This document shows, in pieces, positions 10,925-39,410 of a stretch of DNA of 64,000 bases. Within the stretch, counting starts at the first letter, position 1; every line of letters begins with the position of its first letter. The stretch lies in the NCBI RefSeq assembly GCF_013283195.1, contig NZ_JABEKT010000001.1, forward strand, positions 2,863,473 through 2,927,472, read 5' to 3'. A model generated the notes under the pieces. That model was not told where the DNA came from and made no database searches. It saw nothing but the letters and a program-made list of their open reading frames with translations. A program made the position numbers and the translations under genes. Source of the stretch: Ensifer adhaerens (GTDB lineage: Bacteria > Pseudomonadota > Alphaproteobacteria > Rhizobiales > Rhizobiaceae).

Positions 10925-11060
10925 CGACGCCCCACCCGCACGATCCCCACCGCCACCACATCGCCGACGCCCTTGCCCGGACGCACGCGTGCCGCCAGCG
11001 AGACAGAGGAGATCGATCTGGTCTTCGCGCCGGCCCCGATCTTCGCCTCGAACCACCCTG
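10925..11060 (-). pseudogene. Remnant of a GreA/GreB-like gene 3' end
   Basis: On the minus strand this reads AKTRSISSVSLAARVR then GKGVGDVVAVG, matching PKTGSISYVSPVARVL then GKGVGDVATVG of the intact Gre-like gene 1.9 kb away. At DNA level 10956-11027 aligns without gaps to 12912-12983, with the first 23 bp identical and about 85% identity overall by eye. Similarity fades beyond, and no N-terminal half is present. It lies in the same orientation as the intact gene, with the MATE gene between them. Confidence 0.82.
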
Positions 11061-11371
11061 GCACCCGATCACGCTTCAGCCGGACAAGCGCTTCGCCGTG
11101 CAAGGAGCGGTGATTGCCGGAGCTTCACGGAACCTTGACTGGCGTCTTTCAAATAGGCCCAGGCGCAATTCATGCCGCTTGACAGTAGAACGAGCCGACA
11201 ATAGAGACGCATCCAGGTCCACAGGGTGACCTGCCGCTCGCATGGCGTTATCGCCATTGGTTAACCCCTGCCTTGGACAAGCTGATCGCCATTTCCCCCT
11301 AGGGGCAGTTGGAGCGATGGCAATGCGAGCCCCATCAAAATCATCCGACTTGCCCATGACGGGAGTTTTTG

Positions 11372-12769
11372 ATGAGCGACCAATCGTCGTTGCCGGCTGA
11401 GCCGGAAAATTCACTCTTGAGTGGATCGATCCGATCCGCCTTCATTCGAACCAGCCTGCCAATCATCGTCGTAACGACGATAAGCGGCCTGCTGACCGTG
11501 GCCGATGCCATGCTTCTCGGCGCATTCGTAGGGGCTGATGCCCTGAGTGCGGTGACGTCAGTGTTTCCAATCTCAATGTTATTGGTGGCTGTCTCGACGA
11601 TGGTCGGCATCGGCATGGCCAGCATTTTGGGACGTCGACTAGGTGCCAAAGACGTGGATGGGGCAATCGGCACCCTCGCTTCGGCACAGGGCCTTGCCCT
11701 TGCTGTCGCTGCCCTGGCAATGCTGACTTTTTTTGGACTGGGTGCCCATGTTGTCAGTTTGGCGGCGGGCGGCAACGTCCACCTTGGTGAGATGGGATGG
11801 ACTTTCCTTGCTATTTCATTTGCGACCGCACCGGCAGGATTTCTGCTTTCTGTGCACGTCGACGCGCTGCGCATGGAGGGGCGGGTTGGCTTCATGGCTA
11901 TGGCAGGCGTGTTGGTGACGCTCGCCAATATCGGTTTCAACGCATTGCTGATCGGGGTGTTTGATTTTGGAGTGGCTGGGTCGGCCTGGGGTACGGCCCT
12001 GGCGCAGGTATTGGGGCTGGGTGTCGTTGTTATCTATCGCATGAGCGGCAGAGCAGGCCTGCCGATGGTCGGCTTGAGATACGACGGTGAATGGCGAGAA
12101 ATGCTGGCCCTTGGGGCACCGCGCAGCCTCAATTTCATCGGTATTTCGCTCGGCTCGGCGGCGGTACTGTTCACCCTGCTATGGCTGGAGCTGCCGCAAT
12201 CCGACATGACGATCGCAGCATATGGGGTGGTGATGCGCTTGATGACATTTGCCTTCCTGCCGCTGATGGGTATGAGCCTGGCCCTGCAGGCAATTGTCGG
12301 CAATGCGGCAGGTGCCAGGCAGGATGAGCGGGCAAAGCAGACGCTTTATTTTTCACTTGCCGTAAGCGGAGTTTATTGCCTGCTGGTGCAACTGCTGCTG
12401 TTTGGTGCACGCGGCTGGCTGGGCGGGCTTTTTGTGCCCGATGCCCCTGTTGGGCTGGAGGTGGCACGCATTGTTCCCCTGTACCTTGCAGCGTACGTCG
12501 CTTTTGGCCCGGTCATGATGGCCGCGAGCTATGCGCAAGCCATAGGCAGGGCACGGCAAGCCGCTGTTCTCTCGCTGGGGCGAGCATATCTGTTCGCAAT
12601 TCCGCTGACCTTGGCCTTGCCCCACATTTGGGGTGAGACCGGTGTGTGGGTCGCCGCTCCGATAGCCGATATCTTGATGCTGATGCTCAGCATGCTGGTT
12701 TGGTGGCGTGCCCGCACTTACACCTCGCGAAAGGCCGGCGGCTTCGGATCAGGTTCACTCACTCCATAA
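11372..12769 (+). CDS. MATE family efflux transporter
   Basis: The 465-residue integral membrane protein has about 12 hydrophobic segments and MATE features: an IVVTTISGLLTVADAMLLG first helix region, ALSAVTSVFPISMLL, and a repeat-like second half with SLNFIGISLGSAAVLF. MATE proteins export cationic drugs or metabolites using H+ or Na+ gradients. The ATG has a GGGAG site 6 nt upstream. Codons such as TTA and TTT are more frequent than in neighbours, suggesting foreign origin. The gene sits between an intact Gre-like gene and a copy of that gene's 3' end. Confidence 0.93.
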   Translation: MSDQSSLPAEPENSLLSGSIRSAFIRTSLPIIVVTTISGLLTVADAMLLGAFVGADALSAVTSVFPISMLLVAVSTMVGIGMASILGRRLGAKDVDGAIGTLASAQGLALAVAALAMLTFFGLGAHVVSLAAGGNVHLGEMGWTFLAISFATAPAGFLLSVHVDALRMEGRVGFMAMAGVLVTLANIGFNALLIGVFDFGVAGSAWGTALAQVLGLGVVVIYRMSGRAGLPMVGLRYDGEWREMLALGAPRSLNFIGISLGSAAVLFTLLWLELPQSDMTIAAYGVVMRLMTFAFLPLMGMSLALQAIVGNAAGARQDERAKQTLYFSLAVSGVYCLLVQLLLFGARGWLGGLFVPDAPVGLEVARIVPLYLAAYVAFGPVMMAASYAQAIGRARQAAVLSLGRAYLFAIPLTLALPHIWGETGVWVAAPIADILMLMLSMLVWWRARTYTSRKAGGFGSGSLTP

Positions 12770-12867
12770 TTGGGTTATGCCCGCATCGCCACCGGAGCGA
12801 GCGCGACATCGGTCGACGTAATCGTTACGTATTTCCCGCTTGCCGGTGGCCCGCCGCCGGCGAGCGC

Positions 12868-13350
12868 TTACGCAATCGCTGTAATCTCCAGCTCCTGCCC
12901 GCCGACTGTCGCCACATCGCCGACGCCCTTGCCCATCAGCACTCTTGCCACCGGCGAGACATAGGAGATCGATCCGGTCTTCGGATCCGCCTCGTCCTCG
13001 CCGACGATGCGGTAGGTCTGCACCCGGCCGTCGTCGCGGCAGAAGGTGACCGTGCTGCCGAAGGCGACCACGTCGGTCGAGGTCGGGGCAGAGACGAGTT
13101 CGGCGGTGCGCAGCCGTTCGGCAAGATAGCGAAGGTCGCGCAAGGGGCCAGCCGCCTGGCGCCGGCGCTCGTTGACGTCGTCGATCCCGCTCGTCGCATC
13201 ATAGGCCGCGCGTGCCTCACGCTGCTGCTCTTCCAGCGCCTTCAAGCCCGCTTGCGTGACAAGGTTGGGATGCGGCGAAACCGGGCGGTCAGGCAGAAGT
13301 GTTTCCGCAGCGGTTTCGGCACTTTCTTCCTTGGTAAAGGCAACACTCAC
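12868..13350 (-). CDS. GreA/GreB family transcription elongation factor-like protein
   Basis: The 160-residue protein has an N-terminal coiled-coil-like region (about 30-95: LVTQAGLKALEEQQREARAA, DDVNERRRQAAGPLRDL) and a C-terminal FKBP-like Gre domain (about 105-160: VAFGSTVTF, SISYVSPVARVLMGKGVGD). Gre factors enter the RNA polymerase secondary channel and rescue backtracked complexes. The acidic tip (GIDDVNE) is compatible with cleavage stimulation. A GTG start is chosen for its CGGAG ribosome binding site; the open frame continues 14 codons upstream. Confidence 0.88.
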   Translation of the reverse strand: MSVAFTKEESAETAAETLLPDRPVSPHPNLVTQAGLKALEEQQREARAAYDATSGIDDVNERRRQAAGPLRDLRYLAERLRTAELVSAPTSTDVVAFGSTVTFCRDDGRVQTYRIVGEDEADPKTGSISYVSPVARVLMGKGVGDVATVGGQELEITAIA

Positions 13351-13657
13351 GATCGAACTCCGTTTCGGCGCAGGCCGGCTTTTACATAGCATCCGGGCGA
13401 AAGCCCACCACGGGCAGAACCGAAGCGATGGATGCCCGAGCGCAAACGATGATATTGCCTCATCCGTTCGCAGCGGTCACCCCGCATTGTCCCGATGTCC
13501 GCCGATAACACCGTCACCGGCCGGCGACACGCTCTTTTGGCGGGGTCAACGCGCTCGCGGCTCCAACACCGTCACAATGCGAAAATCCTCTGACGACCGG
13601 CGGCAAATGCCAGCAGTACGCCTCCATAAAAACAACGGGATACCGCGATTTTCTGAC

Positions 13658-14479: not shown

Positions 14480-14598
14480 ACCCGTCCCATCCCCAAAACG
14501 AAAAATCCCCCCGCGGCCGTCATCTCACGGGAGGATCTTGATCGAAAGGCAAAACCTGCCGTCGCCGCTTTTCGGCGGCAACTCGGGCGCTCCTCGTG

Positions 14599-15639: not shown

Positions 15640-16032
15640 GGCTTTGTCTCCTAGGGCGAACGCCGCCAAAACAACGGATCGGGGCGAATCGGGCAGCTGT
15701 TATTTTAGGAATTGAAAAAAGCCACGGAGAAGGCAAGAGAAAAGGGGAATGTCACTTTCCACACATGATTTGTAATTTGGCGTCACGGCGGAATTTCAGG
15801 TTGCCGGCCGGATCGCGCCGTCGGACAAATTAAGTCATTTTATCAGAGACTTGATTTATCTGCACCGCCGCAACCACCATTTGCCCCGGAGCGAACCAGC
15901 AGCACTCTCTTCTGGCTTCGACAGACCGAAAAGGTGCAGCACATCTCTTCCCGCTCCCTGTCAATTGGGAAACAGCGTCATCGCAGCACCCAAATGACGC
16001 AGACGCGAACTCCGAAATTGCGGCGAGGTTTT

Positions 16033-16076: not shown

Positions 16077-16153
16077 CCGAGATTGCGGCCCCGTTTCAAT
16101 CCCAGCACTTCTCCCATTCACTCCTGCTGGATGAAACGCTGGGCGCGCCACAC

Positions 16154-21282: not shown

Positions 21283-21290
21283 TCAGGCGA

Positions 21291-23566: not shown

Positions 23567-24034
23567 ATGACTGCCAAGATCGACCTTTTCGCCGCTGCCC
23601 CGCAACTGATGAAGAGCTGGACCAGCGTGTCGATGGCCATCGCCGCCAGCCTCGAGCCCGATCTCATCGAGCTCGTCAAGATCCGCGCATCCCAGATCAA
23701 TGCCTGCGCCAACTGCATCAATATGCACACGCAGGAAGCCCGCGCCAAGGGCGAGACCGAACAGCGCATCTACCTGCTTTCGGCCTGGCGCGAAGCCCCT
23801 TGCTATTCCGAACGCGAGCGTGCAGCACTTGGCTGGACCGAGGCGCTCACGCGCCTGTCGGAAGGTCATACCCATGAAAGCGCCCGTCAGGCGCTCGCCG
23901 AACAGTTCACCGAGGAGGACCAGGTGAAGCTCACGCTCATGATCAATGTCATCAACGGTTGGAACCGTCTGGCCGTCGGCTTCGGCCTGTGGATCGAGCC
24001 GGCAGCGGCAAAGTCTGCGCAGGCGGCCGCCTGA
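23567..24034 (+). CDS. Carboxymuconolactone decarboxylase (AhpD-like) family protein
   Basis: The 155-residue protein has the AhpD-type redox motif: C47-A-N-C50 followed by H54 in QINACANCINMHT, with E35 upstream in PDLIELVKIRAS. Such proteins act as alkylhydroperoxidase-like thiol oxidoreductases. Its TGA overlaps the ATG of the sigma gene by one base (TGATG), so the two are coupled. Decarboxylase-family partners are the standard neighbours and regulatory targets of ECF41 sigma factors. The ATG follows a GGAAACGGAACC site. Confidence 0.93.
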   Translation: MTAKIDLFAAAPQLMKSWTSVSMAIAASLEPDLIELVKIRASQINACANCINMHTQEARAKGETEQRIYLLSAWREAPCYSERERAALGWTEALTRLSEGHTHESARQALAEQFTEEDQVKLTLMINVINGWNRLAVGFGLWIEPAAAKSAQAAA

Positions 24035-24891
24035 TGGCGGGCAATGCCCACGAGGACGCAGCGGCGGGTTTTGACCCGCTGCGTCCGAAACTCATCCGTG
24101 TCGCCTATCGCATGCTCGGCTCGGTCGCCGACGCAGAGGACATGGTGCAGGAGGCCTTCATCCGCTGGATGGGGGCCGACCGCTCAGCTGTGCGCGAACC
24201 CGAAGCGTTCCTGCGCCGCACCGTCACCCGGCTCTGCCTCGACCAGCTGAAGTCGGCGCGGCTCAAGCGCGAGACCTATGTCGGCCCCTGGCTTCCCGAC
24301 CCCGTCGTCGAGGAGGAGCCGGAGGAAGACGTCACCCTGCCCCTGATGCTCGCCTTAGAGCGCCTGTCGCCGCTCGAGCGCGCCGCCTTTCTTCTCCACG
24401 ACGTCTTCGGGCTGGGGTTCGAGGAAGTCGCCGCCACGATCGATCGCGATCCCGCCGCCTGCCGGCAGCTCGCCGCCCGCGCCCGCACCCATGTGCGCGA
24501 CGGCCGGCCCCGTTTCCAGGTCGAGCAATCGCGTGGGCTCGAACTGGCGCAGGCCTTCTTCACCGCTTCGCGCAGCGGCGACCTGAAGGCGCTCGGCGCC
24601 ATGCTCGCCTCCGATGTCAGCATCCACGCCGACGGCGGCGGCAAACGCTCGGCCGCCATGCACCCGATCCTCGGCTTCGATGCAGTCATCAAGGTGCACG
24701 AGCAATTGGCCGCACTCTTCCGCAAGCACGGCTCCGATCTCGTGCGCGCCGGCTTCATCAACGGCCTGCCCGGCTTCGTCACCCGCGAGGCCGATGGCGA
24801 GCTGCAATCGACCGCGCTTGAGATCGAGGACGGCAAGGTGGTCGCGATCTACATCGTGCGCAACCCGGACAAGCTTGGACATCTGCATTAG
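24034..24891 (+). CDS. ECF41 family RNA polymerase sigma factor with SnoaL-like extension
   Basis: A 285-residue sigma factor. Region 2 (about 15-80: IRVAYRMLGSVADAEDMVQE) and region 4 (about 105-160: LSPLERAAFLLHDVFGLGFE) are joined by a linker containing the ECF41 hallmark WLPDP (86-90). The C-terminal extension (about 170-285) is NTF2/SnoaL-like and carries DGGGK (200-204) and NGLPG (243-247), the segment shown in other ECF41 proteins to regulate activity in cis. No separate anti-sigma gene is present. Its last 52 codons are copied at 28220-28378. Confidence 0.95.
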   Translation: MAGNAHEDAAAGFDPLRPKLIRVAYRMLGSVADAEDMVQEAFIRWMGADRSAVREPEAFLRRTVTRLCLDQLKSARLKRETYVGPWLPDPVVEEEPEEDVTLPLMLALERLSPLERAAFLLHDVFGLGFEEVAATIDRDPAACRQLAARARTHVRDGRPRFQVEQSRGLELAQAFFTASRSGDLKALGAMLASDVSIHADGGGKRSAAMHPILGFDAVIKVHEQLAALFRKHGSDLVRAGFINGLPGFVTREADGELQSTALEIEDGKVVAIYIVRNPDKLGHLH

Positions 24892-25762: not shown

Positions 25763-26014
25763 CGCGGTCGCGAGCCCGTTGCGCGATGATATTACGCCCG
25801 TTCGGCGCGCTCGCAATGCGGGGGCGGCGCGCGCTCCATATCGTCGAAGGCGTAAACCACATGGAGCTTCACGACGGTGAGAAATACGTCGACCACGGCG
25901 GAACGGACCGCGCACCTCAGCTCGCGTCCGAAGGCCCAAGCCTGGTGTCACCCCTCATCGAGAGTGTTCAGGCCGGCCGTCAGACTGCGGCCTGTTCGGC
26001 GTCACAGGAAGGCT

Positions 26015-26248
26015 TCAGGAAGCCGAGAATTTGACCGTTACGCCGCGCTGCCGAAAATACGCCTGCATGAGCTTCCGGCCGGAACGGTTGTTCTGCACGA
26101 GCCTGGCCGGGTCGAATACAGCCTCTTTCAAACCCGCCCGCGTCAACGCGGCCTTGAGCGTCGCGATATGCACGTCGATATCGGCATTGTCCGCCTGGAG
26201 CGATTCATAAATCCGGTTTGTTGCATCTGCTACGGTCGGTTCGCTCAC
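26015..26248 (-). CDS. Small protein, unknown function
   Basis: A 77-residue basic protein with an internal helix-rich stretch (ADIDVHIATLKAALTRAG then EAVFDPARLVQNNRSGRKLM). The GTG start has an AGGAG site 7 nt upstream, which supports translation. It has no signal peptide or membrane segment. I do not recognise a family. It lies between the VWA and SulP genes, all on the same strand. Confidence 0.6.
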   Translation of the reverse strand: MSEPTVADATNRIYESLQADNADIDVHIATLKAALTRAGLKEAVFDPARLVQNNRSGRKLMQAYFRQRGVTVKFSAS

Positions 26249-26466
26249 GATTACACTCCTGTCATTGCCTGGCTGGCGCTTACCACATTTTTCGGCTTGA
26301 CCCTATTGTGCTGAAAAACGCCCACGTCAATGGGTGGCGGCAAATTGGAGGATTGCGCCCGCCTTCGAAAAGGCAAGCACCGGAAGCATACCAGCGGGAA
26401 CCGGCCCCTTGCGGTCGAAACGCATTGCAGCTTCGCACCGGAAGGGTCTTTTGTTCGGGGCGGAAA

Positions 26467-27933
26467 TCAGATTTCCTTGAGTTTCGCTGGGCTGTCGAGG
26501 CTTCCGATCAAAGTTGCGCTTGCATCATTCAACCCCAAGACAGTGGTTGCGATATCGTGGGCTCGAAAACGATCTACGACCTTGTCGAGCGCCGCCACTG
26601 CCGTGATATCCCAGAAATGGGCCTGCGAAACATCGATAACCACGCTCGTGCCCTTGGCTTCTTCGATATCGAATGCGTCGATGAAGACATCGGCCGAGGC
26701 GAAGAACACTTGCCCTGATACGCGATACTTCACCTGCCCGCGACTGGCATCGGTCTCTGTTTCCACCTTCATCAGGCGGGCAACCTTGAAGGTGAAGAAC
26801 ACGCCGCTCAAGAGAACGCCGATGGTGACGCCGAGAGCAAGGTTGGCGCTGAACACCGTGACAACAACGGTCACCACCATGACGGCGCTGGACATCTTCG
26901 GGTGAACGACCAGCGTCTTCAACGACGACCAATCGAACGTATCGATAGACACCATTACCATGATTGCAACGAGGGCAGCGACAGGAACCTGGGAGACCCA
27001 TGGCTTCAACAGAACCATAAGGACGAGCAGGAACGCGCCGGCGAATAGCGTGGAAAGTCTTCCCCGTCCGCCATATTTCACGTTGCTGACAGTCTGGCCG
27101 ATCATGCCGCAGCCAGCGATCCCTCCGAACAGGCTCGCGGCCGTGTTGGCGATGCCAAGGCCCGCACATTCCCTGTTCTTCGAACTTGGCGTGCCCGTGA
27201 GATCGTCAACAACACTTGCCGTCATCATCGATTCCAAGAGGCCAACCATGGCTATGGCAAGTGCCGGGCCGGCGATGATCGTCAGCGTCTCCAGCGTCAT
27301 CGGCACGGCGGGCCAGCCAAAGACCGGCAGGGAATCGGGCAATTTTCCGAGATCCGCAATTGTCATGACCGGCAGCTGCAAGGCGATCGATGCGACTGTC
27401 AGGACAACAATGCAAATCAACGGGGATGGGATGGCGGTCGTGATCCTCGGTACGAGGTAGATGACTGCGAGGCCCGCCGCCAGCATGCCGTAGGCAAGCC
27501 AGTCTCCCCCGACAATATGCGGCAGTTGGGCTGCGAAGATGAGGATTGCCAATGCATTGACGAAGCCCGTCCGCACGGATCTCGAAACGAAGCGCATCAG
27601 GACCCCGAGACGGAGAAGCCCGAAAACGATCTGGATCACCCCGGCAAGCAGTCCGGCGGCGAAGAGATAAGCAAGTCCGTGAGCATGAACCAGGGGTGCC
27701 GCGACAAGGGCGACCGAGCCCGCAGCGGCAGATATCATTGCCGGACGGCCACCTGTGAAGGCGATGACGATGCCGATTATGAAAGAAGCAAACAGGCCGA
27801 CCTGCGGATCGACGCCTGCAACGAAGGAAAACGCGATAACCTCTGGAATCAGCGCGAACGTCGCGACGGCCCCAGCGAGCATTTCGCGCATGGGATTGGC
27901 GGACCAATCCCGGCGGATCGAAGAAAATTGCAT
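26467..27933 (-). CDS. SulP family anion transporter with STAS domain
   Basis: The 488-residue protein has a SulP membrane domain (about residues 15-360) with PQVGLFASFIIGIVIAFTGG and GLLESMMTASVVDDLTG, then a cytosolic STAS domain (about 385-485: VSGQVFFASADVFIDAFD, VVIDVSQAHFWDITAVAALD). SulP proteins carry sulfate, bicarbonate or other anions. The ATG of MQFSSIRRDW starts directly at the conserved N-terminus; the open frame extends 130 codons upstream antisense to the sigma-factor remnant and is spurious. No carbonic anhydrase neighbour is present to suggest bicarbonate. Confidence 0.92.
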   Translation of the reverse strand: MQFSSIRRDWSANPMREMLAGAVATFALIPEVIAFSFVAGVDPQVGLFASFIIGIVIAFTGGRPAMISAAAGSVALVAAPLVHAHGLAYLFAAGLLAGVIQIVFGLLRLGVLMRFVSRSVRTGFVNALAILIFAAQLPHIVGGDWLAYGMLAAGLAVIYLVPRITTAIPSPLICIVVLTVASIALQLPVMTIADLGKLPDSLPVFGWPAVPMTLETLTIIAGPALAIAMVGLLESMMTASVVDDLTGTPSSKNRECAGLGIANTAASLFGGIAGCGMIGQTVSNVKYGGRGRLSTLFAGAFLLVLMVLLKPWVSQVPVAALVAIMVMVSIDTFDWSSLKTLVVHPKMSSAVMVVTVVVTVFSANLALGVTIGVLLSGVFFTFKVARLMKVETETDASRGQVKYRVSGQVFFASADVFIDAFDIEEAKGTSVVIDVSQAHFWDITAVAALDKVVDRFRAHDIATTVLGLNDASATLIGSLDSPAKLKEI

Positions 27934-28219
27934 CTGAAGAGTTCTCGCAAAGCATGGCGAACGCGCTCTGCTGAGCGGTCGTTTGAATGGCATGCAGGTT
28001 TTGCGTGGTCTGGCGGATCGGCGGCCAGAAGAGCCACCCGGAATTTCACCGGGTCCGTGGTGAGTAAATTCGTAATATCGCAAACTTTCTGCATTGCAAT
28101 ATGAAATTGCAATGGCGGCGATCGGCGCGAAACGGCCGTTCACACGATGAACGGCGGCTTCTCCATTGCGTATGGGTCGAGGCAGGAACTGTCCGGCTAC
28201 CGCCAATCGGCGATCAGGC

Positions 28220-28378
28220 GAGGACCTGGTGCGCGCCGGCTTCATCAACGGCCTGCCCGGTTTCGTCACCCGCGAGGCCGACGGCGAGCTGCAATCGACC
28301 ACACTCGAGATCGAGGACGGCAAGGTGGTGGCGATCTATATCGTGCGCAACCCGGACAAGCTGGTGCATCTGCACTGA
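28220..28378 (+). pseudogene. 3'-terminal fragment of a second ECF41 sigma gene
   Basis: This encodes EDLVRAGFINGLPGFVTREA through NPDKLVHLH and a stop, matching the last 52 residues of the intact sigma factor with about three substitutions. DNA identity is about 93% over 156 bp by eye. Upstream of 28220 the similarity ends abruptly, and no sigma regions 2 or 4 exist here. Orientation is the same as the intact gene 3.3 kb to the left. Confidence 0.9.
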
Positions 28379-28711
28379 CGCCGATTGCGCCCAAGTGCGG
28401 CTCAGCGGACTGCGGCCGGTGCCGGCGGCGACCCGTTTTACGATGAGCGAGAGCCGGGTCAGCGTCACCGCATGGAACGCACGTCGTTGCCAGTGCTGTG
28501 GCGTATGGCGCTGGGCCGATCTGGCGGCTCGACATTGGTGAAATCGGCGACGGCGGAGCAACCATCGACCCGCCTGTTCCCGACTTTTTGGCAATCTGGT
28601 ATGGTTGCGTGCCATGAGCTTGAGCGTAGGCCATTCGCCATCGAAACGACGAGATGGGTGACGACAGGCCAGGGTAACAGCAGGCACGAGGGCACTTTCG
28701 GGGCCACTTCA
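28379..28711. other. Intergenic region upstream of the adenylate-forming enzyme gene
   Basis: 333 bp between the sigma-gene remnant and the next coding start. The open frame from the downstream gene continues through it, but the encoded residues resemble nothing and lack a start with a ribosome binding site. No repeat or clear promoter was assigned. Confidence 0.4.
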
Positions 28712-30271
28712 ATGTCGCCATCGCCATCCATCGCAACGCTCGACACCAGAGCGCTCAGGCAGCATTCCGAAGCGCTTTTCAGCCGCTGCCAATGGTCACG
28801 GGAGCAATTGCTGTCCTTCCAGGCGACGCAACTGCAATCCATGTTGCAGCACGCCATCCATTCCTCGCCCTATTATCGCGACACCATCGGTGCCCTCGTG
28901 GCGCGGGAGGCGGCGCTCGCCGCCTTTCCGGTATTGAACAAGCACGCGCTCATGGAAAACTTCGACCGGATCGTCACCGACACGAGGCTCGACCGACATC
29001 AGGTCGAGCGGCACCTCGACGGCGACGATCCGGGAAGCCTGCTGCTTGGTGAGTTCAGCGTGGCCGCCACCGGCGGAACGACGGGCGAGCGCGGGATCAC
29101 CGCGTTCGACGGCGCTGCCTGGCTGGCTGCGATCGCCACCATGGTGCGCTTTCAGAGAATTATCGGCATCGAGGAAACCACGCGGAGCATGGCGGTCTTT
29201 GCGTCGTCCCCTGTCCACATCTCCCATAGGATCGGCGCCGAGTTGCGGGCGATCCGGCCCAAGGCACCCGGGCTGAACGTGCTGATGCCGACCGAGACGA
29301 TCGTCGAAACGCTCAATGCCTATCAGCCCGAAGTCATTTCGACCTATCCCTCATTCGTACGCGTGCTGGCCGCTGAGCAGGAGGCCGGACGGTTGCGGAT
29401 CAGGCCAAGGCTATTTCGCACCAGCGCCGAAACGCTGACGCAGGATGTGCGCGCTATCGCAGCCGAGACCTGGCAGGCGACCGTCGCCAACAGCTATGTC
29501 TGCACCGAGGCCGGGCCGATGGGTCACGAATGCCTGCGCGCCGATGGCCTGCATCTCGCCGAAGATGCCTTCGTCTTCGAAGTGGTCGATACCGACAATC
29601 GCCCCGTCGCTAACGGCACCCAGGGCGCAAAACTGCTTGTGACGACGCTGACCAACCGCACGCTGCCATTGGTGCGCTACGAGATCTCCGACATGGTCAC
29701 CATGGCAAGCGAACCCTGTCCATGCGGCCTGCCCTTCTGGCGCATCGCCTCGATCGCCGGACGCCGGGAGGAAATGCTTCGTTTCGCCAAACGCGGCGGC
29801 GGCACGATCGATGTCCACGCGCACCGCCTGCGCTCGCCGCTGACGGGCACGGCCGGCGTGCGGCAATTCCAGTTCGTGCCGCTGCCCGACGGGCTGGAAA
29901 TCAGGATCTCGGTGTTTCCAGGGATCGTCGCCGATGCCGTGAGCAGGAAGATCGAGGACGCGATCCGCGCGACGCTCGACGCGGTCGACGCCCAACCTTC
30001 AATCCTTGCCGTCAAGGTGGTCGACGCCATCGATCGCTCGGGCGCCGGGGCAAAGGTAAGGCTGGTGGCAACAGCGGCCGCGCGCTCCCCGGATAAAAGA
30101 GATAACACCCGGCGCTGCGTCGTCTGCAGCCCCGGCCACCGTTGCGTCACGCAATCGCACTGGCGGCGACCGCCACGTCGTTGTCCAGCGGATAGACCGG
30201 CCGGCGGACGCGTCGGTACGTGCGTGCGCCGATATTGGCGGTGCTCAAACCATCGGCGTCGACCTCGATGA
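28712..30271 (+). CDS. Phenylacetate-CoA ligase-like adenylate-forming enzyme
   Basis: A 519-residue protein of the PaaK/CapK type: LQSMLQHAIHSSPYYRDTIG near the N-terminus, the phosphate loop AATGGTTGERG near residue 120, STYPSFVRVLAAEQEAG, SYVCTEAGPMGHEC, and the hinge-like PLVRYEISDMV. Such enzymes activate aryl or acyl acids as adenylates. The substrate is unknown. The recognisable domain ends near residue 465; about 55 further codons, Arg/Cys-rich, run antisense into the M81 gene for 125 bp, suggesting that the original stop was lost by a frameshift. Start is tentative, with only a weak ribosome binding site. Confidence 0.83.
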   Translation: MSPSPSIATLDTRALRQHSEALFSRCQWSREQLLSFQATQLQSMLQHAIHSSPYYRDTIGALVAREAALAAFPVLNKHALMENFDRIVTDTRLDRHQVERHLDGDDPGSLLLGEFSVAATGGTTGERGITAFDGAAWLAAIATMVRFQRIIGIEETTRSMAVFASSPVHISHRIGAELRAIRPKAPGLNVLMPTETIVETLNAYQPEVISTYPSFVRVLAAEQEAGRLRIRPRLFRTSAETLTQDVRAIAAETWQATVANSYVCTEAGPMGHECLRADGLHLAEDAFVFEVVDTDNRPVANGTQGAKLLVTTLTNRTLPLVRYEISDMVTMASEPCPCGLPFWRIASIAGRREEMLRFAKRGGGTIDVHAHRLRSPLTGTAGVRQFQFVPLPDGLEIRISVFPGIVADAVSRKIEDAIRATLDAVDAQPSILAVKVVDAIDRSGAGAKVRLVATAAARSPDKRDNTRRCVVCSPGHRCVTQSHWRRPPRRCPADRPAGGRVGTCVRRYWRCSNHRRRPR

Positions 30272-31670
30272 TCTCTGATGCGATCGGGCCGAAGGCGGCG
30301 CGGAAATGCTGCTGCGACTTGACGACGACGACGTCGTAGGTCGCGGGCTCGATGCCGACGGCGCGAAAGAGGTTCTGGTCGAGCAGCTGCTGGCGCTCGC
30401 TCGAAATCAGGATGTCGATGCCGGAGACGCGGAAGCGCACGCTTGGGCCGAGAGACGCCGGCAGGCCCTTAAACATCGGCCCTTCGAAGATGATCCGCCC
30501 GTCGGAGATCGCCTGCACCGTGCCCTTGACCCGGACCGGCCCGCCGCCGACGGAAGGGTCGATCTTGCAGCCGAGCGTCACCTCGCGCTCGGCCCCGAGC
30601 CCTGCTTCGATCAGCTCGGCAACGACCGCCGGGTCGCACATCGCCCCGAAGGCGGCATTGGTGACACCCGCCTGCAAGAGGCCCGAGAGCAGGCAGGTGG
30701 AATCGCTATAGGCGCCGCAGCCGGGATTGTCGGAGAAATCGGCGATCACCAGCGGCCCGGGCTTGCGCTTGACTGCCAAATGTTTCGCGATGGCGCCCGG
30801 CAGTGCCGTCAGCGGCAATTGTTCATCCTGGTGTTCGCGCCGCTGCCAGATCTCGTCGCAGAGCCGCTCTGCATGCGCGATCGCATCGGCGTCAGCCACC
30901 TTCGCCTTGTCGTAGCAGATGACGGCCGAAGGGCCGGTGTTGTGGATGTCGGCGTCGTAGAAGCCGGCATTGATGGAGGTCGCGAGAATACCGTCCTCGC
31001 GCGCGATCGCATCGGCGATATCAAGCAGCTCGGTCATGGCGCAGGCATGGGTGGTGCGGCCGTCGTTGCAGCCGTTGATCATCGGCGGCTGGCGAATGGC
31101 AATGGCGGGCGCGATCTCGCGGCGCATCGCCGCTTCCAGCAGGGCCCCCGCTTTCGTCGCGCATTCCGCCATGTCCACATGCGGATAGGTGCGGAACGAG
31201 ACGGCAATGTCGAGAAGGTCAGCCATCTCAGGCGCCGAATTGGCGTGCAGGTCGAAGGTGGCGGCAATCGGCAGGTCGGACCCGACAATGCCCCTCACCA
31301 CCTGAAGCAGCTGGATCTGCGCGTCGTCAGATGTCTCCGTGCACATGGCGCCGTGAAAGACGATGAAAACGCCGTCGAGCTTTTCGCCCTCAAGCGCTGC
31401 CGTCACGTCTGCGACGAAGCGCAGGCGCGTCGCCTCATCGATCCGGCCACCGGGCTCGGCCCGGGCCGCCACCGTATAGACCGGCTCCCAGCCAAAACGG
31501 TCGCAACAGTCGATGAAGCCGCCGATTTCCGAATTGGTGCCGCGGCAATTGTCCTCGATCGCCGCCCCTTTGAAATAGTGGCACATCTCGAAATCCTTGA
31601 AGCCGGTCTTCAGCTTCGAGAACGTGTTGGTTTCCTGGTTGAACTCGAGAACGGCGACCTTGAAGCTCAT
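30147..31670 (-). CDS. M81 family metallopeptidase (MlrC/microcystinase C-like)
   Basis: The 507-residue protein starts MSFKVAVLEFNQETNTFS, typical of the MlrC N-terminal DUF1485 domain, with metal-ligand candidates in FDLHAN and YPHVDMAE and with NDGRTTHACAMTE. The C-terminal domain contains DNPGCGAYSDSTCLLSG. MlrC degrades linear peptides; most family members in proteobacteria lie near peptide or amino-acid transporters, as here with a binding-protein gene upstream on the same strand. No signal peptide is seen. Start could be five codons earlier. Confidence 0.88.
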   Translation of the reverse strand: MSFKVAVLEFNQETNTFSKLKTGFKDFEMCHYFKGAAIEDNCRGTNSEIGGFIDCCDRFGWEPVYTVAARAEPGGRIDEATRLRFVADVTAALEGEKLDGVFIVFHGAMCTETSDDAQIQLLQVVRGIVGSDLPIAATFDLHANSAPEMADLLDIAVSFRTYPHVDMAECATKAGALLEAAMRREIAPAIAIRQPPMINGCNDGRTTHACAMTELLDIADAIAREDGILATSINAGFYDADIHNTGPSAVICYDKAKVADADAIAHAERLCDEIWQRREHQDEQLPLTALPGAIAKHLAVKRKPGPLVIADFSDNPGCGAYSDSTCLLSGLLQAGVTNAAFGAMCDPAVVAELIEAGLGAEREVTLGCKIDPSVGGGPVRVKGTVQAISDGRIIFEGPMFKGLPASLGPSVRFRVSGIDILISSERQQLLDQNLFRAVGIEPATYDVVVVKSQQHFRAAFGPIASEIIEVDADGLSTANIGARTYRRVRRPVYPLDNDVAVAASAIA

Positions 31671-31914
31671 GGCATGCACTTTCATTCGGGGAATGGGAGA
31701 AGATCGAAGAGACGGGCGCCGGGGAAGCGCGAACACCCCGGCGCCGCGCCCGTCGCATGTTGCGCCCTGCGTGAAACGCAGCACGCGACATGCGAATTCC
31801 TTGGGAGAGGCTTGCCGCTCACAGTTTCCTTGTGAGGCTGCAGCTCATCCATCACCCAGGAGAGACCATTGAAGTGCCGACAGCGACTATAGTTGCGAGC
31901 GGTTGCCGCGATGT

Positions 31915-34572: not shown

Positions 34573-34585
34573 ACGTAACTGTTAA
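34573..34585. promoter_or_regulatory. GTAAC/GTTA-type palindrome, imperfect
   Basis: ACGTAAC-T-GTTAA, an imperfect member of the GTAAC-N-GTTAC motif set also found before sulfatase 2, sulfatase 3 and the DUF1254 gene. It lies in the spacer between the MFS 3' end and the small secreted gene, 223 bp upstream of the latter. Confidence 0.4.
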
Positions 34586-34607
34586 TTGTAACCATATGAG
34601 TTCGTAA

Positions 34608-35813
34608 TCACGCCACACCCGGTTCGCCCGCCACCGCCGGCTTGCGCCCCAACCGCAAGCCGAAAATCAACGGCACGGCGATCGCATAGACAACGACGAC
34701 CGACAGCCAGATCGCACCCGGCCATTGCTCCCTGACGGCGAAGTAGAAGCTCGAGAACGCCAGCGGGCTGACGATCGAGGCAAGGCTCACCACCGACGCC
34801 AGCACGCCCTGGAACTGGCCTTGTTGGCTGTCATCGACTTCTCCAGTCGCCAGCGCCTGCAGCGCCGGCACGCCGATGCCGCCGAGCGCGAAGACCGGCA
34901 TGATCGCGAAGATCATCCAGCTCTCCGTCGCAAGCGCCATGACGATAAGTGCTGCGCAGACGCTGGCGACACCGGTCAAGATGGCCGCGCGCTCGCCGAG
35001 CAGCTTGACGGCCGGACCGGGGAGAAAGGCCTGGGCAAGGGTCTGGCAGACGCCGAAGGTGCCGAGCGACAGCCCGACCCAAAGCCCGTTCCACTGGAAG
35101 GTATCGCCGCCCCATAGCGCCCAGCAGGTGCCGTAGGCCTCGCCGGTGGCGCTGAAGATGAAGAAGATGACAATGATTGGCATCAGGCTCTTCACCGAGA
35201 AAACCCAGCGCAGGGGCGCAAGCGGGTTCAGCGCCGAAAGATCGAGTTTCTCCCGGCTGGGCGTGCGCGATTCCGGCAGGATGAACAATGCCAGCAGCAG
35301 GTTGCAGCCGTTGAGGACCGCCGCCGCGATGAAGGGCAGCCGTAGCCAATGATCACCAAGAGCGCCCCCAAGAACGGGGCCGATGATGAAACCGATGCCG
35401 AACATGGCGTTGAACAACCCGAAGCGGCGGGCACGCTTCTCCTCAGGCGAAATGTCGGTGATGTAGGCCATCGCCACGGAGATGTTGGCGCTCGTCAGTC
35501 CGGCAATGGCGCGGCCGATGAACAGCACGAGGAGATTGGGCGCAAAGGCCAGCAACAGGTAGTTGATGGCAGCGCCGCCAAGCGAAATCAGGAGCACCGG
35601 CCGGCGGCCGAGGCGATCGCTGAGCGCACCGAGCACCGGCGCGAAGACGAACTGCATGGCCGCGTAGAGCGCGGTCATCACGCCGATATAGGGCGCGACG
35701 TTGTCGGTGTGGGTCACCTCCTTCAAAAGCGAAGGCAGGATCGGGAAGATGAGGCCGATGCCGACGGCATCGAGCACGATGGCAATGAAAATGACGATAA
35801 GGGGCCTGGTCAT
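34608..35813 (-). CDS. TetA-like MFS drug:H+ antiporter
   Basis: The 401-residue protein has 12 membrane segments and the tetracycline-efflux subgroup signatures: MTRPLIVIFIAIVLDAVGIG at the start (motif D1-type Asp in helix 1), the motif A loop GALSDRLGRRPVLLIS, and FGIGFIIGPVLGG for motif C. It probably exports a drug or metabolite. No tetR-type regulator is divergent from it. The ATG has GGAG close upstream; an earlier in-frame start lacks similarity. A copy of its 3' end lies at 38463-38516. Confidence 0.9.
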   Translation of the reverse strand: MTRPLIVIFIAIVLDAVGIGLIFPILPSLLKEVTHTDNVAPYIGVMTALYAAMQFVFAPVLGALSDRLGRRPVLLISLGGAAINYLLLAFAPNLLVLFIGRAIAGLTSANISVAMAYITDISPEEKRARRFGLFNAMFGIGFIIGPVLGGALGDHWLRLPFIAAAVLNGCNLLLALFILPESRTPSREKLDLSALNPLAPLRWVFSVKSLMPIIVIFFIFSATGEAYGTCWALWGGDTFQWNGLWVGLSLGTFGVCQTLAQAFLPGPAVKLLGERAAILTGVASVCAALIVMALATESWMIFAIMPVFALGGIGVPALQALATGEVDDSQQGQFQGVLASVVSLASIVSPLAFSSFYFAVREQWPGAIWLSVVVVYAIAVPLIFGLRLGRKPAVAGEPGVA

Positions 35814-36240
35814 GGCACGCTCCGGCAGACGCAAGCATGCGAACGCCTTCAAGCGCCGATAGCTCGCGATCAGGGCTATGCACAATTCCCCGCTTCGGAT
35901 CGATTCCGGCGGGAATTACGCAGCGAGTTTAAAGGCTTGCAGCGAATAGTGCGCCATAGGTGAAGCGCGACGCTACAAGGTGTGTCAGTTATTGATTTTG
36001 GGAGCCGCTGGCCGATCCCTGCCCAAGAGCGCAGGGATGACATGTGCTTGACCGCCTGGACGCCAATTCGTCCACCTGTTTACTCCGCCACTGAGCGGAT
36101 CAAGGGAAGCGGTCGCTTTTCGCGACGACCGACAATTACGCCGATCGGCCACGCGCGACAAGTCTCTTTTTTCGAGGGATCGATCACGATTGCCCGGCTG
36201 CATTCAGCAAGCCGTGACGCATCGGAAATGCACGTGCCGC

Positions 36241-36314
36241 AATCAGCTGAGCCGCCAGACCTTGACGGCAGAGATCAGCAAAATCACAGTGAGAGCCCGC
36301 AGCAGGACGCCGTT
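36241..36314 (-). pseudogene. Remnant of a TSUP exporter 3' end
   Basis: The minus strand encodes NGVLLRALTVILLISA then VKVWRLS and a stop, against NGVLLPALAVILLISA then AKVWRHS and a stop in the intact TSUP gene (38598-39410). DNA identity to 38596-38669 is about 90% by eye. Similarity ends at about 36314. The remaining part of the spacer (35814-36240 and 36315-36403) holds nothing recognisable. Sulfatase 1 lies between this remnant and the intact gene. Confidence 0.87.
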
Positions 36315-36403
36315 CGCCACGATGCGGCGCGGTTGAAGAACATAGACGCTCCAACCGCGCCGCGCCGTATCCGCTGCTTCCGACTGCGGATGTCGATGCG
36401 GGC

Positions 36404-38056
36404 TTACTGCCCATGCTGCTTGCGCATCGCCTCGGCGATCTGTGCTTTGACGCCGTCTATTCCGAAACTTGCACCCTTCTGCATCGGCGGAAATTCGATC
36501 GCCGACTTTGCCAGTTCCTCAACTCTTTGCTGGACGAGGACAAAGCGCCAGAACTCGAACTTGTACCATTCAAAATACTCTTGCGAACCGACGTTGCCCT
36601 TGAAGAAGGCCGTCCGCTCGAACGGATCAAGGCGCAGGTTTACAACGGTCGGCACATCCAGCTTGATGGTGTTGCCGATCCAACCATCAGGCTGTTCCAT
36701 GAAGGTGTATTTGTAGTCATCGATACGGGCCGCGCCGAGCACGCTTTCGGCGAAATACCAGATCTCGTGGCGGTTCGACGGGCCGGTTCCAGCGAGCAGG
36801 CTGGTCTGATCATAGCCATCAAGGTGAACCTTGTAGGTCTGGCCACTGAGTTCCTTGCCCGCTCTCAGTTCGACGGCAATGTTGGTACTCCCGGCAGCGG
36901 CCACAAGTGTGGGGAACCAGTCGAGGCCGGACATCAGCCCGTTGCATATCGAACCCGGAGGAACATGCCCTGGCCACCGGATCATTGCCGGAGCGCGGAA
37001 GCCGCCTTCGTAGGTGGTGCCTTTTCCGCCGAAGAACGGTGTCTGTCCGCCATCGGGCCAGGTAAAGTTTTCCGTGCCGTTGTCGGTGGTGAATATGACG
37101 ATGGTGTTGTCATCGTCGCCCATGTCCTTGAGCTTTTGCATGGTGTCGCCGACAATGTCGTCCAACTGGGCCATTCCTGCTTCATGGATGGTCCAGCCGT
37201 TCTCCGAGTTGCGCATCTTCTCGTACTTTTCCGACAGATGCGTAACGATGTGCATCCGTGTCGGGTTTAGCCAAAGGAAGAACGGCTTGCCGTCGGCCTT
37301 TGCCTTGTCGATGAACTTGAAGGACAGGTCCCGAATTTCGTCATCGACCGTCTCCATGCGCTTCGGGTAGAGCGTGCCGGCATCCTCGATCTTCTGTTTG
37401 CCGATCTTGCCCCATCGCGGCATTTCCGTCGGGTCGTCCACTTCGGTGGCCCAGGAGTGGACCATGTTGCGCGGACCGACAACGTTCAGCAATTCCTGCG
37501 GATAACCAGGATGCGCAGGGTCTTCCATCGCATCCAGGTGGTAGAGGTAGCCGAAGAATTCATCGAACCCATGAACGGTCGGCAGGAACTCGTTGAGATC
37601 GCCGAGATGGTTCTTGCCGAACTGTCCTGTGGCATAGCCCATCGACTTCAGTACCGTTGCGATAGTGGGCGCAGCAGCAGGCAGACCGATGGGCGAGCCT
37701 GCCTGTCCGACCGTGGTCATGCCGGTTCGAACCGGAAGTTGCCCGGTAATGAAATTGGCCCGTCCCGCCGTGCAACTCGCCTCGGCGTAGTAATCTGTAA
37801 AGAGCATCCCCTCTGCGGCAAGCTTGTCGAGATGGGGAGTGCGGCCCGCCATCATGCCGCGATTGTAGGCACCGATATTCCAGATGCCGACATCGTCCGC
37901 CATGATGACCACTATGTTTGGTTTCTTGCCGGCTGTTTGCGCCATCGCGCTGCGGCTCAAGGTAACGCTCGCAGTGGTGCCAATTGCCGACATCGCCAGC
38001 AGCGACCCGCCGGTTAACAGTATATCTCTTCGCGTTGGAGTTGCATCGCTTGCCAT
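36404..38056 (-). CDS. Arylsulfatase-type sulfatase 1, Tat-exported
   Basis: The 550-residue protein has a Tat signal (TRRDILLTGG, cleavage near SAMAQ) and a sulfatase domain: PNIVVIMADDVG (metal aspartates), active-site ASCTAGRA with C95 as the formylglycine precursor and R99, GKNHLGD, and TTDNG. The motif is CTAGR rather than CxPSR. It hydrolyses a sulfate ester in the periplasm. The ATG at 38056 has GGAGGA 6 nt upstream; one two codons earlier abuts it. Codon use is slightly less GC-biased. The gene lies between 3'-end remnants of TSUP and MFS genes. Confidence 0.93.
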   Translation of the reverse strand: MASDATPTRRDILLTGGSLLAMSAIGTTASVTLSRSAMAQTAGKKPNIVVIMADDVGIWNIGAYNRGMMAGRTPHLDKLAAEGMLFTDYYAEASCTAGRANFITGQLPVRTGMTTVGQAGSPIGLPAAAPTIATVLKSMGYATGQFGKNHLGDLNEFLPTVHGFDEFFGYLYHLDAMEDPAHPGYPQELLNVVGPRNMVHSWATEVDDPTEMPRWGKIGKQKIEDAGTLYPKRMETVDDEIRDLSFKFIDKAKADGKPFFLWLNPTRMHIVTHLSEKYEKMRNSENGWTIHEAGMAQLDDIVGDTMQKLKDMGDDDNTIVIFTTDNGTENFTWPDGGQTPFFGGKGTTYEGGFRAPAMIRWPGHVPPGSICNGLMSGLDWFPTLVAAAGSTNIAVELRAGKELSGQTYKVHLDGYDQTSLLAGTGPSNRHEIWYFAESVLGAARIDDYKYTFMEQPDGWIGNTIKLDVPTVVNLRLDPFERTAFFKGNVGSQEYFEWYKFEFWRFVLVQQRVEELAKSAIEFPPMQKGASFGIDGVKAQIAEAMRKQHGQ

Positions 38057-38462
38057 GCTCATTCCTCCGTTTGGTCAGGCAAAAACAGAGCAACGCGCGG
38101 TGCGGCGGGATTGTAATGGGGAGGCCGTGGCTTCGGATTGCTCTGTCGTGAGAGCCGCGCGAAATCGCGTTCCTTGCCGATCCTGGCAAGGCCTGTCGGC
38201 TCGCCTGATCCAACACTATGCTACCACAAACGAGCCGATTGCAAGTCACGGTAGGTAACGGGCCCGATTAAAGCGACGCGGCCAAGAAATGCAACTCAGG
38301 ATGGATCCCCTTGGTTGCCCAAAGATGCCTTGATGATACAGTAGCCGCAAGGTCGAAAGCGACCCTTGTCGCATTTGCTGTCTACTATGCTCTGGCGCGA
38401 AGCGATCAACGATGGTTCATTCAGTTCCGGCAAGCCCGCCGGGGCGGCGTCGGCTCCAAACA

Positions 38463-38516
38463 CAAGCCGAAAACCAACGGCACGCAGATCGTGTCGATAA
38501 CGACGACCAAGAGAAA
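38463..38516 (-). pseudogene. Remnant of a TetA-like MFS gene 3' end
   Basis: The plus-strand sequence from CAAGCCGAAAA to ACGACGACC aligns with 34656-34709 at the end of the intact MFS gene, about 85% by eye. On the minus strand it reads VVVIDTICVPLVFGL against VVVVYAIAVPLIFGL. No other part of an MFS gene is adjacent. The remaining spacer between sulfatase 1 and TSUP (38057-38462, 38517-38597) has no gene. Confidence 0.78.
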
Positions 38517-38597
38517 CCGACATTGATGCATCAGGCACCAGGATGACAACGAAGGTGCCAAGTGTTGCATTTTGTGATGCAAATGAGAGTGCTTCAA

Positions 38598-39410
38598 TCA
38601 GCTGTGCCGCCAGACCTTTGCGGCAGAGATCAGCAAAATCACAGCGAGGGCCGGCAGCAGGACGCCGTTAGGTACGACACCTAAAAGCAATCCACCGATG
38701 AAGGTGCCGACGATCGAGCCGGCCGCCATCATGAGGAGGAAGCGCGTGTTGCGTCTCAGAACGGAGAAGCTTTGGTCTCGACTGTATCGGGTAAAGCCGA
38801 CCAACATCGTCGGCAGGCTCACGGCCAGTGAAAGGCTGCCCGCCAGTTTTATGTCCGCGCCGAACAGAAGCACAAGGGTGGGTATCAGCAGTTCGCCACC
38901 GGCGACACCCAAGAGCGAGGCGACGATGCCGATGACGAAACCTGCCACGACACCGGCAACGAGTTGCGCCGATCCGGTCAGGAGTGACTGCCCCGCTGTC
39001 GCATCATGGCCCGCAACCAGAATGACCGCGATCACGACGAGCAAGGCCGCGATGACCTTATAGAGGGTTTCGGACCGGAGACGCGTCGCCCACCCTGCCC
39101 CGAACCATGCGCCCAACAGGCTGCCAGCGAGCAGATTGACCACAATGGACCAGTTTTCCGCAATCGCTCCAAACGGAACGGTGGCGGCCCGGAACGGCAG
39201 GGCTGTCGCAACGACGACCAGGCTCATCGCCTTGTTGAGGATGACGGCTTCCAGCGCGGCAAAGTTGAACAGGCCAATGAGCAGCGGCAAGCGGAACTCT
39301 GCCCCGCCAAGGCCGATGAGGCCGCCGAGTGCGCCGATCACTGCGCCGCCGCCGAATGCTGCCGGCGCGCTGCGCGCAGGAGTGGTGGACGTGTTGGCAG
39401 AGGTTTCCAT
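38598..39410 (-). CDS. TSUP family sulfite/sulfonate exporter (TauE/SafE)
   Basis: A 270-residue membrane protein with about 8 hydrophobic segments in two repeats: GALGGLIGLGGAEFRLPLL in the first half and IVASLLGVAGGELLIPTLVL in the second, the paired glycine-rich motifs of TauE/SafE. Family members export sulfite, sulfoacetate or related organosulfur anions. The ATG at 39410 is preferred over an upstream TTG. Close to sulfatase 1, a link to sulfur metabolism is plausible but not shown. Confidence 0.91.
   Translation of the reverse strand: METSANTSTTPARSAPAAFGGGAVIGALGGLIGLGGAEFRLPLLIGLFNFAALEAVILNKAMSLVVVATALPFRAATVPFGAIAENWSIVVNLLAGSLLGAWFGAGWATRLRSETLYKVIAALLVVIAVILVAGHDATAGQSLLTGSAQLVAGVVAGFVIGIVASLLGVAGGELLIPTLVLLFGADIKLAGSLSLAVSLPTMLVGFTRYSRDQSFSVLRRNTRFLLMMAAGSIVGTFIGGLLLGVVPNGVLLPALAVILLISAAKVWRHS

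Follow-up and report, generated by a model that had tools for sequence, protein, structure and literature searches.

The 64,000-nt stretch analysed here (the window; its genome is designated G000) contains three genes whose 3' ends occur a second time on the same strand, each copy lying 2-4 kb of other genes away from the intact gene. The genes encode a GreA/GreB-like protein (gre), an ECF41-type sigma factor and a TSUP protein. How did their ends come to be separated from them by unrelated genes? An earlier note on this DNA had proposed insertions that bring a replacement 3' end, as at tRNA genes. Our comparison with related genomes indicates that the copies are probably displaced gene ends, produced as DNA from related Ensifer lineages entered by one-sided recombination.

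Results

Three repeated gene ends in the window

All three pairs described in the earlier note are present at the places given there, with the copies oriented like their intact genes (Table 1). They are above chance because a self-scan of a 504-kb stretch of G000 returned them with E-values of 1e-18 (gre), 2e-59 (ECF41) and 8e-27 (TSUP). The earlier identities were about 93, 90 and 85%; if that list was in order, the value for gre was too high. The stop codon is retained in two of the three copies, as noted before: ECF41, with TGA instead of TAG, and TSUP. The gre copy has none. Pfam backed the gene names (GreA_GreB, MatE, Sigma70_r2/r4_2, DUF1194, Sulfate_transp+STAS, Sulfatase and TauE), and the gene formerly read as VWA is DUF1194.

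Table 1. Positions of the repeat pairs and of the features at the three sites (numbered within the window)
Feature	Position	Strand	Remarks
gre repeat pair	10946-11038 / 12902-12994	same orientation	82% over 92 nt (BLAST); 80% ungapped
ECF41 repeat pair	24736-24887 / 28223-28374	same orientation	92% over 152 nt (BLAST); 92% ungapped
TSUP repeat pair	36226-36322 / 38581-38677	same orientation	86% over 97 nt (BLAST); 86% ungapped
Site A: cyclase-TPR gene left of gre fragment	9135-10841	-	Pfam PF00211, TPR
Site A: gre 3'-end fragment	10946-11047	-	covers gene nt 391-481 of 525; lacks stop; heavily decayed; 82% over 92 nt
Site A: MATE transporter, cargo	11369-12769	+	Pfam PF01554; common to G015
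Site A: intact GreA/GreB-like gene, anchor	12868-13392	-	Pfam PF01272, E 7e-21
Site B: intact ECF41-type sigma factor gene, anchor	24034-24891	+	Pfam PF04542, PF08281
Site B: DUF1194 gene, cargo	24965-25951	-	Pfam PF06707; common to G015
Site B: small ORF block, cargo	25956-26394		missing at same place in G015; matches elsewhere in relatives
Site B: SulP transporter + STAS domain, cargo	26467-27934	-	Pfam PF00916, PF01740; common to G015
Site B: scar, last 14 nt of M81 (MlrC) with stop codon, ahead of joint	28214-28227	-	identical in G015, where intact M81 gene begins
Site B: ECF41 3'-end fragment	28223-28378	+	92% over 152 nt; in-frame TGA; at most 5 nt of letters common with scar
Site B: resident-type DNA downstream of fragment	28702-30083		84% to G013 48935-47557
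Site B: G000's own intact M81/MlrC gene	30147-31784	-	Pfam PF07364, PF07171
Site C: MFS transporter, native neighbour	34608-35885	-	Pfam PF07690
Site C: TSUP 3'-end fragment	36226-36322	-	86% over 97 nt; also in G007 and G013 (80-81%)
Site C: sulfatase, cargo	36404-38062	-	Pfam PF00884; common to G007 and G013; missing at same place in G015
Site C: MFS-gene 3'-end fragment beside TSUP	38445-38508	-	80% over 64 nt
Site C: intact TSUP (TauE/SafE) gene	38598-39431	-	Pfam PF01925

Donor, recipient and joint at the ECF41 site

The relative G015 has the gene order ECF41-DUF1194-SulP followed by an intact M81 (MlrC) gene. In G000, DNA of the G015 type (91% identical over 26452-28227) ends 14 nt into the 3' end of M81, and the ECF41 fragment follows. 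The M81 3' end and ECF41 share 2 to 5 letters at this joint (28223-28227). The SulP ORF as listed is over-extended and reaches 28323. G015 has only ~145 nt between the equivalents of 25830 and 26452, and the small-ORF block (~0.6 kb) is missing. To the right of the fragment, the resident-type DNA has its counterpart at the same place in G013, between ECF41 and M81; its ORF had no Pfam match. The donor arrangement (G015-like, minus the small ORF) and the recipient arrangement (G013-like) are therefore both found in living relatives.

The fragment and the intact ECF41 gene of G000 differ at 1/1/10 sites in codon positions 1/2/3 (P=0.0005). Comparisons between orthologues show the same pattern, with 1/1/10 differences to G002 and 1/0/12 to G007. 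Because the differences fall mainly at third positions, both copies appear to have evolved as functional genes up to the time they were brought together, and they seem to have diverged as orthologues do, not as a gene and its decaying duplicate. The phylogeny also changes across the joint. To the left, G000 groups with G015 at a UFBoot value of 93, which is below the usual 95, and the left-block identities of G000 are close (93.0% to G015, 92.8% to G007 and 92.5% to G013). To the right, G000 groups with G007 at a UFBoot value of 99. In core stretches G000 is nearest to G007 and G013 and farther from G015. Sliding identity showed no clear switch that would mark a crossover point within the intact ECF41 or gre gene.

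Because of the M81 scar, the 1/1/10 codon pattern and the change of tree across the joint, the ECF41 event in G000 appears nearly solved: G015-like DNA would have entered by homology at one end and been end-joined at the other. G015 itself is not the donor. The exchange could also have run in the opposite direction, with a G015-like recipient taking up G013-like DNA that was anchored in M81 or beyond and whose free end lay within ECF41. In that case the fragment would be foreign and the cargo resident. Such an event predicts an identical joint, and the resident-type segment matches G013 less well than the ~90% of the backbone. We consider this polarity rather improbable, since the core stretches and the right-hand tree place G000 with G007 and G013 and not with G015, and the G015-like content is the odd part in the clade of G000.

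ECF41 fragments were found in 3 of the 15 genomes fetched, with lengths of 38, 79 and 152 nt. In G002 the fragment runs directly into the sequence that, in other species, immediately follows the intact gene. Codon-position differences of the other two fragments are not orthologue-like (4/5/5 in G002 and 2/0/2 in G007). Among 80 named ECF41 loci, a fragment was seen only in the G007 strain; 10 other rows are 18-41-nt matches of no weight.

The gre and TSUP sites

All 16 genus genomes have an intact gre-like gene, and two of them have a gre fragment (91 and 288 nt). The site is empty in G013. In G000, positions 11152-12780 are 93% identical to G015. The cyclase-TPR gene is beside the MATE gene in G015 and on other contigs or replicons in several relatives; the G000 fragment adjoins it, not the native flank. 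Its codon-position differences (4/7/5) are not orthologue-like. The G002 fragment, by comparison, directly precedes the downstream flank found right behind the intact gene in other species, and it differs from the intact gene at 7/6/17 sites (P=0.007).

The TSUP site is messier and does not fit the simple model, because G007 and G013 have no intact TSUP gene and the TSUP gene of G015, beside the MFS gene, is internally deleted. The description of cargo between an intact gene and its copy holds for G000 only, as G007 and G013 carry the TSUP fragment and the sulfatase alone. One-sided recombination at this site would need extra losses in both. The 3' end of the MFS gene is copied as well, a fourth gene-end copy in the window that is absent from the earlier note. 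Neither the TSUP fragment (2/3/4) nor the MFS fragment (6/4/3) has orthologue-like codon-position differences. Checked as the earlier note had proposed, relatives yielded donor and recipient arrangements for ECF41, an empty site only for gre (G013), and no clean pair of arrangements for TSUP. Its view that the incoming DNA carried a replacement 3' end and that the fragment is the displaced one agrees with the best cases (ECF41 in G000, and gre and ECF41 with their native flanks in G002) and not with TSUP.

Partial tandem duplication within a genome, or decay of a full tandem paralogue to its 3' end, had been offered as a simpler explanation. The even codon-position spread of the gre, TSUP and MFS fragments in G000 is compatible with it, and a 104-nt 3' fragment in G005 (2081992-2082094), close upstream of the intact gene, looks as a decayed tandem copy would. 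However, the ECF41 fragment of G000 and the gre fragment of G002 differ from the intact genes mainly at third positions, and fragments are found next to native flanks, separated from the intact gene by foreign genes. The fetched stretches showed no full-length second copy close to gre or ECF41, and the 80 named loci none close to ECF41. Duplication is thus an unlikely source of the copies.

Gene fragments beyond the window

The earlier note had suggested a search for further direct repeats of gene 3' ends. Besides the MFS pair in the window, such repeats were found in a survey of 1.704 Mb in four stretches (two from G000, one from G006 and one from G005), which recorded local same-strand gene fragments with at least 75% identity over 40 nt and used gene calls from a home-made GC3 method. 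Of 19 rows that passed, 3 had more than 3 copies and were discarded, leaving 16. The ECF41 row was included manually, since its fragment is covered by the over-called SulP ORF. The kept rows comprise 8 3' ends (from 7 genes), 5 5' ends and 3 internal fragments. A special bias toward 3' ends is rejected by these counts (8 vs 5 rows, p=0.58). The second G000 stretch (G000b, 400 kb) and the G006 stretch (400 kb) had no fragment rows. The fragment is on the downstream side in 6 of the 8 rows with 3' ends and on the upstream side in 4 of the 5 with 5' ends; these are the sides that one-sided insertion predicts, although the numbers are small. G005 has a mirror event at the 5' end of a gene, with ~186 nt duplicated, and the corresponding site is empty (single copy) in five relatives (G010, G014, G008, G001 and G009). 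A replication terminus as the cause of local clustering was rejected: in the 504-kb stretch (G000:C1:2643473-3147472), KOPS-like octamers are on one strand and the GC skew does not switch.

These data bear on whether the segments are small site-specific integrative elements that target the 3' ends of protein genes with a replacement end, their integrase being lost or supplied in trans. In the fetched genomes, every gre and ECF41 fragment is a 3' end in the same orientation, and the cargo differs between species at the same gene end, as such elements would have it. Yet the fragments vary from 38 to 288 nt and the copies are 82-92% identical, where constant, short, identical direct repeats (att) would be expected. 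On its right, the ECF41 cargo ends at a break within an ordinary gene, M81, and this scar weakens the reading further. Consistent with the earlier remark that no integrase is visible, Pfam detected no integrase, transposase or recombinase family in the main cargo ORFs of G000, G002, G007, G015 and G005, one G007 ORF and a small G000 ORF being without a family or unscanned. The mirror 5' event in G005 and the similar numbers of 3' and 5' rows also argue against it. We therefore regard integrative elements as very improbable and find no support for a tRNA-type insertion.

Discussion

We conclude that the gene-end copies, as seen at ECF41 in G000 and at gre and ECF41 in G002, are probably natural footprints of homology-facilitated illegitimate recombination (HFIR) or of circle formation followed by a single crossover. 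By analogy, the same mechanism may have acted at gre and TSUP in G000. In the proposed mechanism, incoming linear DNA would pair by homology inside a conserved anchor gene and supply the 3' end of that gene together with the donor genes beyond. A homologous joint in a shared gene fits ECF41, which is intact in all 15 genomes fetched and has different trees to its left and right. The other end of the incoming DNA, a random break, would be joined without homology or with few shared letters, and this joint would fall inside the same anchor gene of the recipient. The outcome would be a whole anchor gene followed by the new genes, beyond which the recipient's original 3' end persists as a fragment next to its former flank. 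Joining may occur by HFIR proper, or the incoming DNA may be end-joined to a circle that then integrates by a single crossover. Ku-dependent end joining is suggested by gene content only, namely five Ku genes above the cut-off. Dupuy et al. (2019) reportedly treated NHEJ and heterologous DNA uptake in S. meliloti.

HFIR is described from Streptococcus pneumoniae, Acinetobacter baylyi and Pseudomonas stutzeri, and as rare in E. coli conjugation (PMC3240628). As in that account, the Ensifer case combines a homologous joint with a non-homologous one that has few shared letters (3-10 bp of microhomology in HFIR), and foreign DNA lies between them. Unlike the systems treated there, it is an evolutionary footprint only, in a rhizobial chromosome and between DNAs that are 8-18% diverged. 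HFIR as presented in that source usually deletes recipient DNA about as long as the insert (PMC3240628), whereas the Ensifer joint lies inside the anchor gene, yielding a displaced end, and at the ECF41 joint the recipient lost little or no DNA. A recipient loss of the insert's length was not found there; the G013-type flank lacks ~0.8 kb farther right, away from the joint. Since the event replaced no more than part of ECF41, circle formation with a single crossover suits this site at least as well. Integration of linear DNA in E. coli through ligation of its ends to a circle and a single crossover, as outlined in the same source, gives the same product: intact gene, cargo and truncated copy (PMC3240628).

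Related arrangements are known. The displaced effector ends and orphan immunity genes of the Vibrio cholerae T6SS, and orphan Rhs 3' regions, also have a module at a conserved gene with the old 3' region moved downstream, for which HFIR was proposed in Vibrio (PMC5361080). Those loci, as characterized in that paper, are under toxin-immunity selection, whereas the Ensifer anchors are housekeeping-type genes and the cargo consists of ordinary transport and enzyme genes. The short variable segments and dimorphic loci of E. coli were likewise credited to homology-assisted illegitimate recombination, but the excerpted account describes them without displaced gene ends (PMC2884548). In Sinorhizobium meliloti, genomic islands and prophages at the 3' ends of tRNA genes are similarly flanked by an intact gene end and an end copy; unlike the Ensifer sites, with diverged gene ends of variable length and no integrase found, they are reported in the excerpt with direct repeats of 12-98 bp and integrases (PMC11476347). 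The titles and abstract beginnings of the literature searched contained no description of the present sites, which does not prove that none exists.

HFIR has so far been a matter of laboratory crosses and of proposals for toxin loci; there is value in natural examples that reveal the donor arrangement, the recipient arrangement and the joint together. The insert of transport genes at the ECF41 sigma factor gene provides one, with base-level resolution, and it comes from a genus that has several Ku genes. Gene gain of this kind is an ordinary process that is seldom so clearly readable. It is conceivable, if speculative, that one-sided recombination and multi-Ku end joining form a steady route in Ensifer by which one to a few genes are gained beside conserved genes, each event leaving a datable scar at a gene end that would reveal donor, recipient and joint genome-wide. 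If such scars are common, they would allow gene gain without mobile elements to be counted and dated. Other species, too, have displaced ends at the same genes.

Results and discussion

The fragment pattern in the window is real, a known kind of event accounts well for it, and one case is resolved almost to the base. The earlier note had described three genes, each accompanied by a same-strand copy of its 3' end. All three pairs were confirmed in place by BLAST, with identities of 82% over 92 nt for the GreA/GreB-like gene (gre), 92% over 152 nt for the ECF41 sigma factor gene and 86% over 97 nt for the TauE/SafE gene (TSUP), which far exceed chance. The gene names also agree with Pfam. The window's genome (G000) was compared with 15 further genomes of the genus. 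Long alignments show the region to be collinear in five relatives (G015, G013, G007, G006 and G008), broken by differing inserts; for the remaining relatives, sequence was taken around gre and ECF41 only (G014, around gre only).

The ECF41 site is the most informative. G013 lacks the cargo, and its match to a downstream window segment (see table) sits 1.15 kb past ECF41. G015 has ECF41, DUF1194 and SulP without the small ORF or the ECF41 fragment, and its cargo continues without a break into an intact MlrC-type (M81) gene, entered at the 3' end. G000 is identical to G015 through GGCGATCAGGCGAGGACCT, the final 14 nt of which are the M81 stop and last codons, and then switches to ECF41; 2-5 letters at this joint are common to both sides. 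Because the identity ends in M81 letters, the DNA left of the joint, incoming or resident, was formerly linked to an M81 gene and was broken 14 nt inside it.

Third codon positions account for 10 of the 12 differences between the G000 ECF41 fragment and the intact gene (P=0.0005). This is the pattern seen between species, indicating that the two ends diverged as working genes in separate lineages. G000 is closest to G007 and G013 in two core stretches: in one, its identity to them is 95%, against 90-91% to G015; in the other, long matches to them are at 91-95%, against 80-86% to G015. Trees group G000 with G007 right of the joint (UFBoot 99) and with G015 left of it (UFBoot 93), though identities to relatives are close there. 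The best reading of these sequences is that G015-like DNA entered a chromosome of the G007/G013 type at ECF41; the opposite polarity is less probable.

Intact ECF41 is present in all 15 genomes sampled at the site, and a downstream 3'-end fragment in three. In G002, 1.85 kb containing an M20 peptidase gene separates intact ECF41 from the fragment downstream of it. The alignment of G002 to G001 starts inside this fragment and continues into a downstream region common to G001, G003 and G011, where it starts ~50 nt past ECF41. Therefore, the native flank remains attached to the displaced ECF41 end. In G007, the flank common to G013 and G006 begins 13 nt beyond the fragment.

Fragments of gre occur in 2 of 16 genomes. 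In G002, 1.35 kb with an outer-membrane-type (Phenol_MetA_deg) gene separates a 288-nt fragment from intact gre, and the two differ by 7/6/17 at the three codon positions. After this fragment come 59 nt of the flank found behind gre in G007, with more of that flank further along. G013 has an empty site. The other fragment, in G000, is short and decayed (4/7/5) and adjoins a cyclase-TPR gene located on other contigs in several relatives. G015 has the cyclase and MATE genes as in G000, plus an additional insert with a bestrophin-like gene; no recognisable gre fragment was found in it. By analogy, the G000 gre copy may have originated by one-sided recombination.

TSUP is the weakest case of the three. 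Intact TSUP is missing from G007 and G013, which carry the TSUP fragment, sulfatase and MFS genes as G000 does. In G015 the sulfatase is absent, and an internally deleted TSUP adjoins the MFS gene. This adjacency suggests that TSUP-MFS was the ancestral order, that the MFS-adjacent TSUP fragment would be the displaced end, and that TSUP was probably lost later in G007 and G013. Codon-position differences within the G000 pair are even (2/3/4). A fourth pair lies here, the neighbouring MFS gene with a 3'-end copy beside the TSUP 3' end, giving an alternating minus-strand order of TSUP, MFS fragment, sulfatase, TSUP fragment and MFS gene.

Gene-end fragments were surveyed in 1.704 Mb of sampled sequence. 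The 16 rows retained comprise eight at 3' ends, five at 5' ends (p=0.58 for 3' versus 5') and three internal; a 504-kb G000 stretch holds nine rows, five inside the window. A mirror-image case was found in G005: 2.7 kb upstream of an HlyD-type gene, on the far side of a cyclase-TPR(-rhodanese) gene, lies a copy of the HlyD-type gene's 5' end. In G010, G014, G008, G001 and G009 the flanks of this site overlap by 184-188 nt, a single copy with no insert. Given the 5' rows and the G005 case, a process restricted to gene 3' ends lacks support. Elsewhere in G000, a displaced-looking 3' end of an NDH-2-type oxidoreductase gene (94% and 88% pieces) lies ~0.6 kb from the intact copy; the gene is present in 16/16 genomes, and the fragment had no match in the other 15 at the search threshold.

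Incoming DNA would join the recipient by one homologous and one non-homologous joint. Such joining would explain the variable fragment lengths, the between-species divergence, the involvement of both gene ends and the absence of a recombinase from the ORFs scanned. Either homology-facilitated illegitimate recombination (HFIR), or circle formation by end joining of the incoming piece followed by one crossover, would explain the pattern (PMC3240628). Others have proposed HFIR to account for the displacement of 3' regions at Vibrio T6SS and Rhs loci (PMC5361080), as well as for the small variable segments of E. coli genomes (PMC2884548). G000 has five Ku-family genes on C14 and C16, four of them forming two neighbouring pairs on C14, and end joining operates in S. 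meliloti (PMC10932983); thus the means for end joining are present, and Ku end joining may have taken part at these sites.

Positions and lengths of features in G000 and relatives
Feature	Genome	Position	Length
ECF41 fragment	G000		152 nt
ECF41 fragment	G002		79 nt
ECF41 fragment	G007		38 nt
Segment matched in G013	G000	window 28702-30083	
MFS gene	G000	window 34608-35885	
MFS 3'-end copy	G000	window 38445-38508	
Intergenic repeat	G000	window 40174-40283	~105 nt
Inverted pair	G000	window 53946-55739 / about 62621-63751	1.0-1.15 kb alike
NDH-2-type 3' fragment	G000	C1:2987606-2987743	
NDH-2-type gene	G000	C1:2988299-2989621	
HlyD-type 5' copy	G005	L154:5981-6063	
HlyD-type gene	G005	L154:8728-10077	

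Two other repeats were seen in the window. The members of the inverted pair are ~74% alike, one gene being intact and one copy broken, and the region also matches the sulfatase weakly. The short repeat has many copies across the genus genomes and is intergenic wherever inspected.
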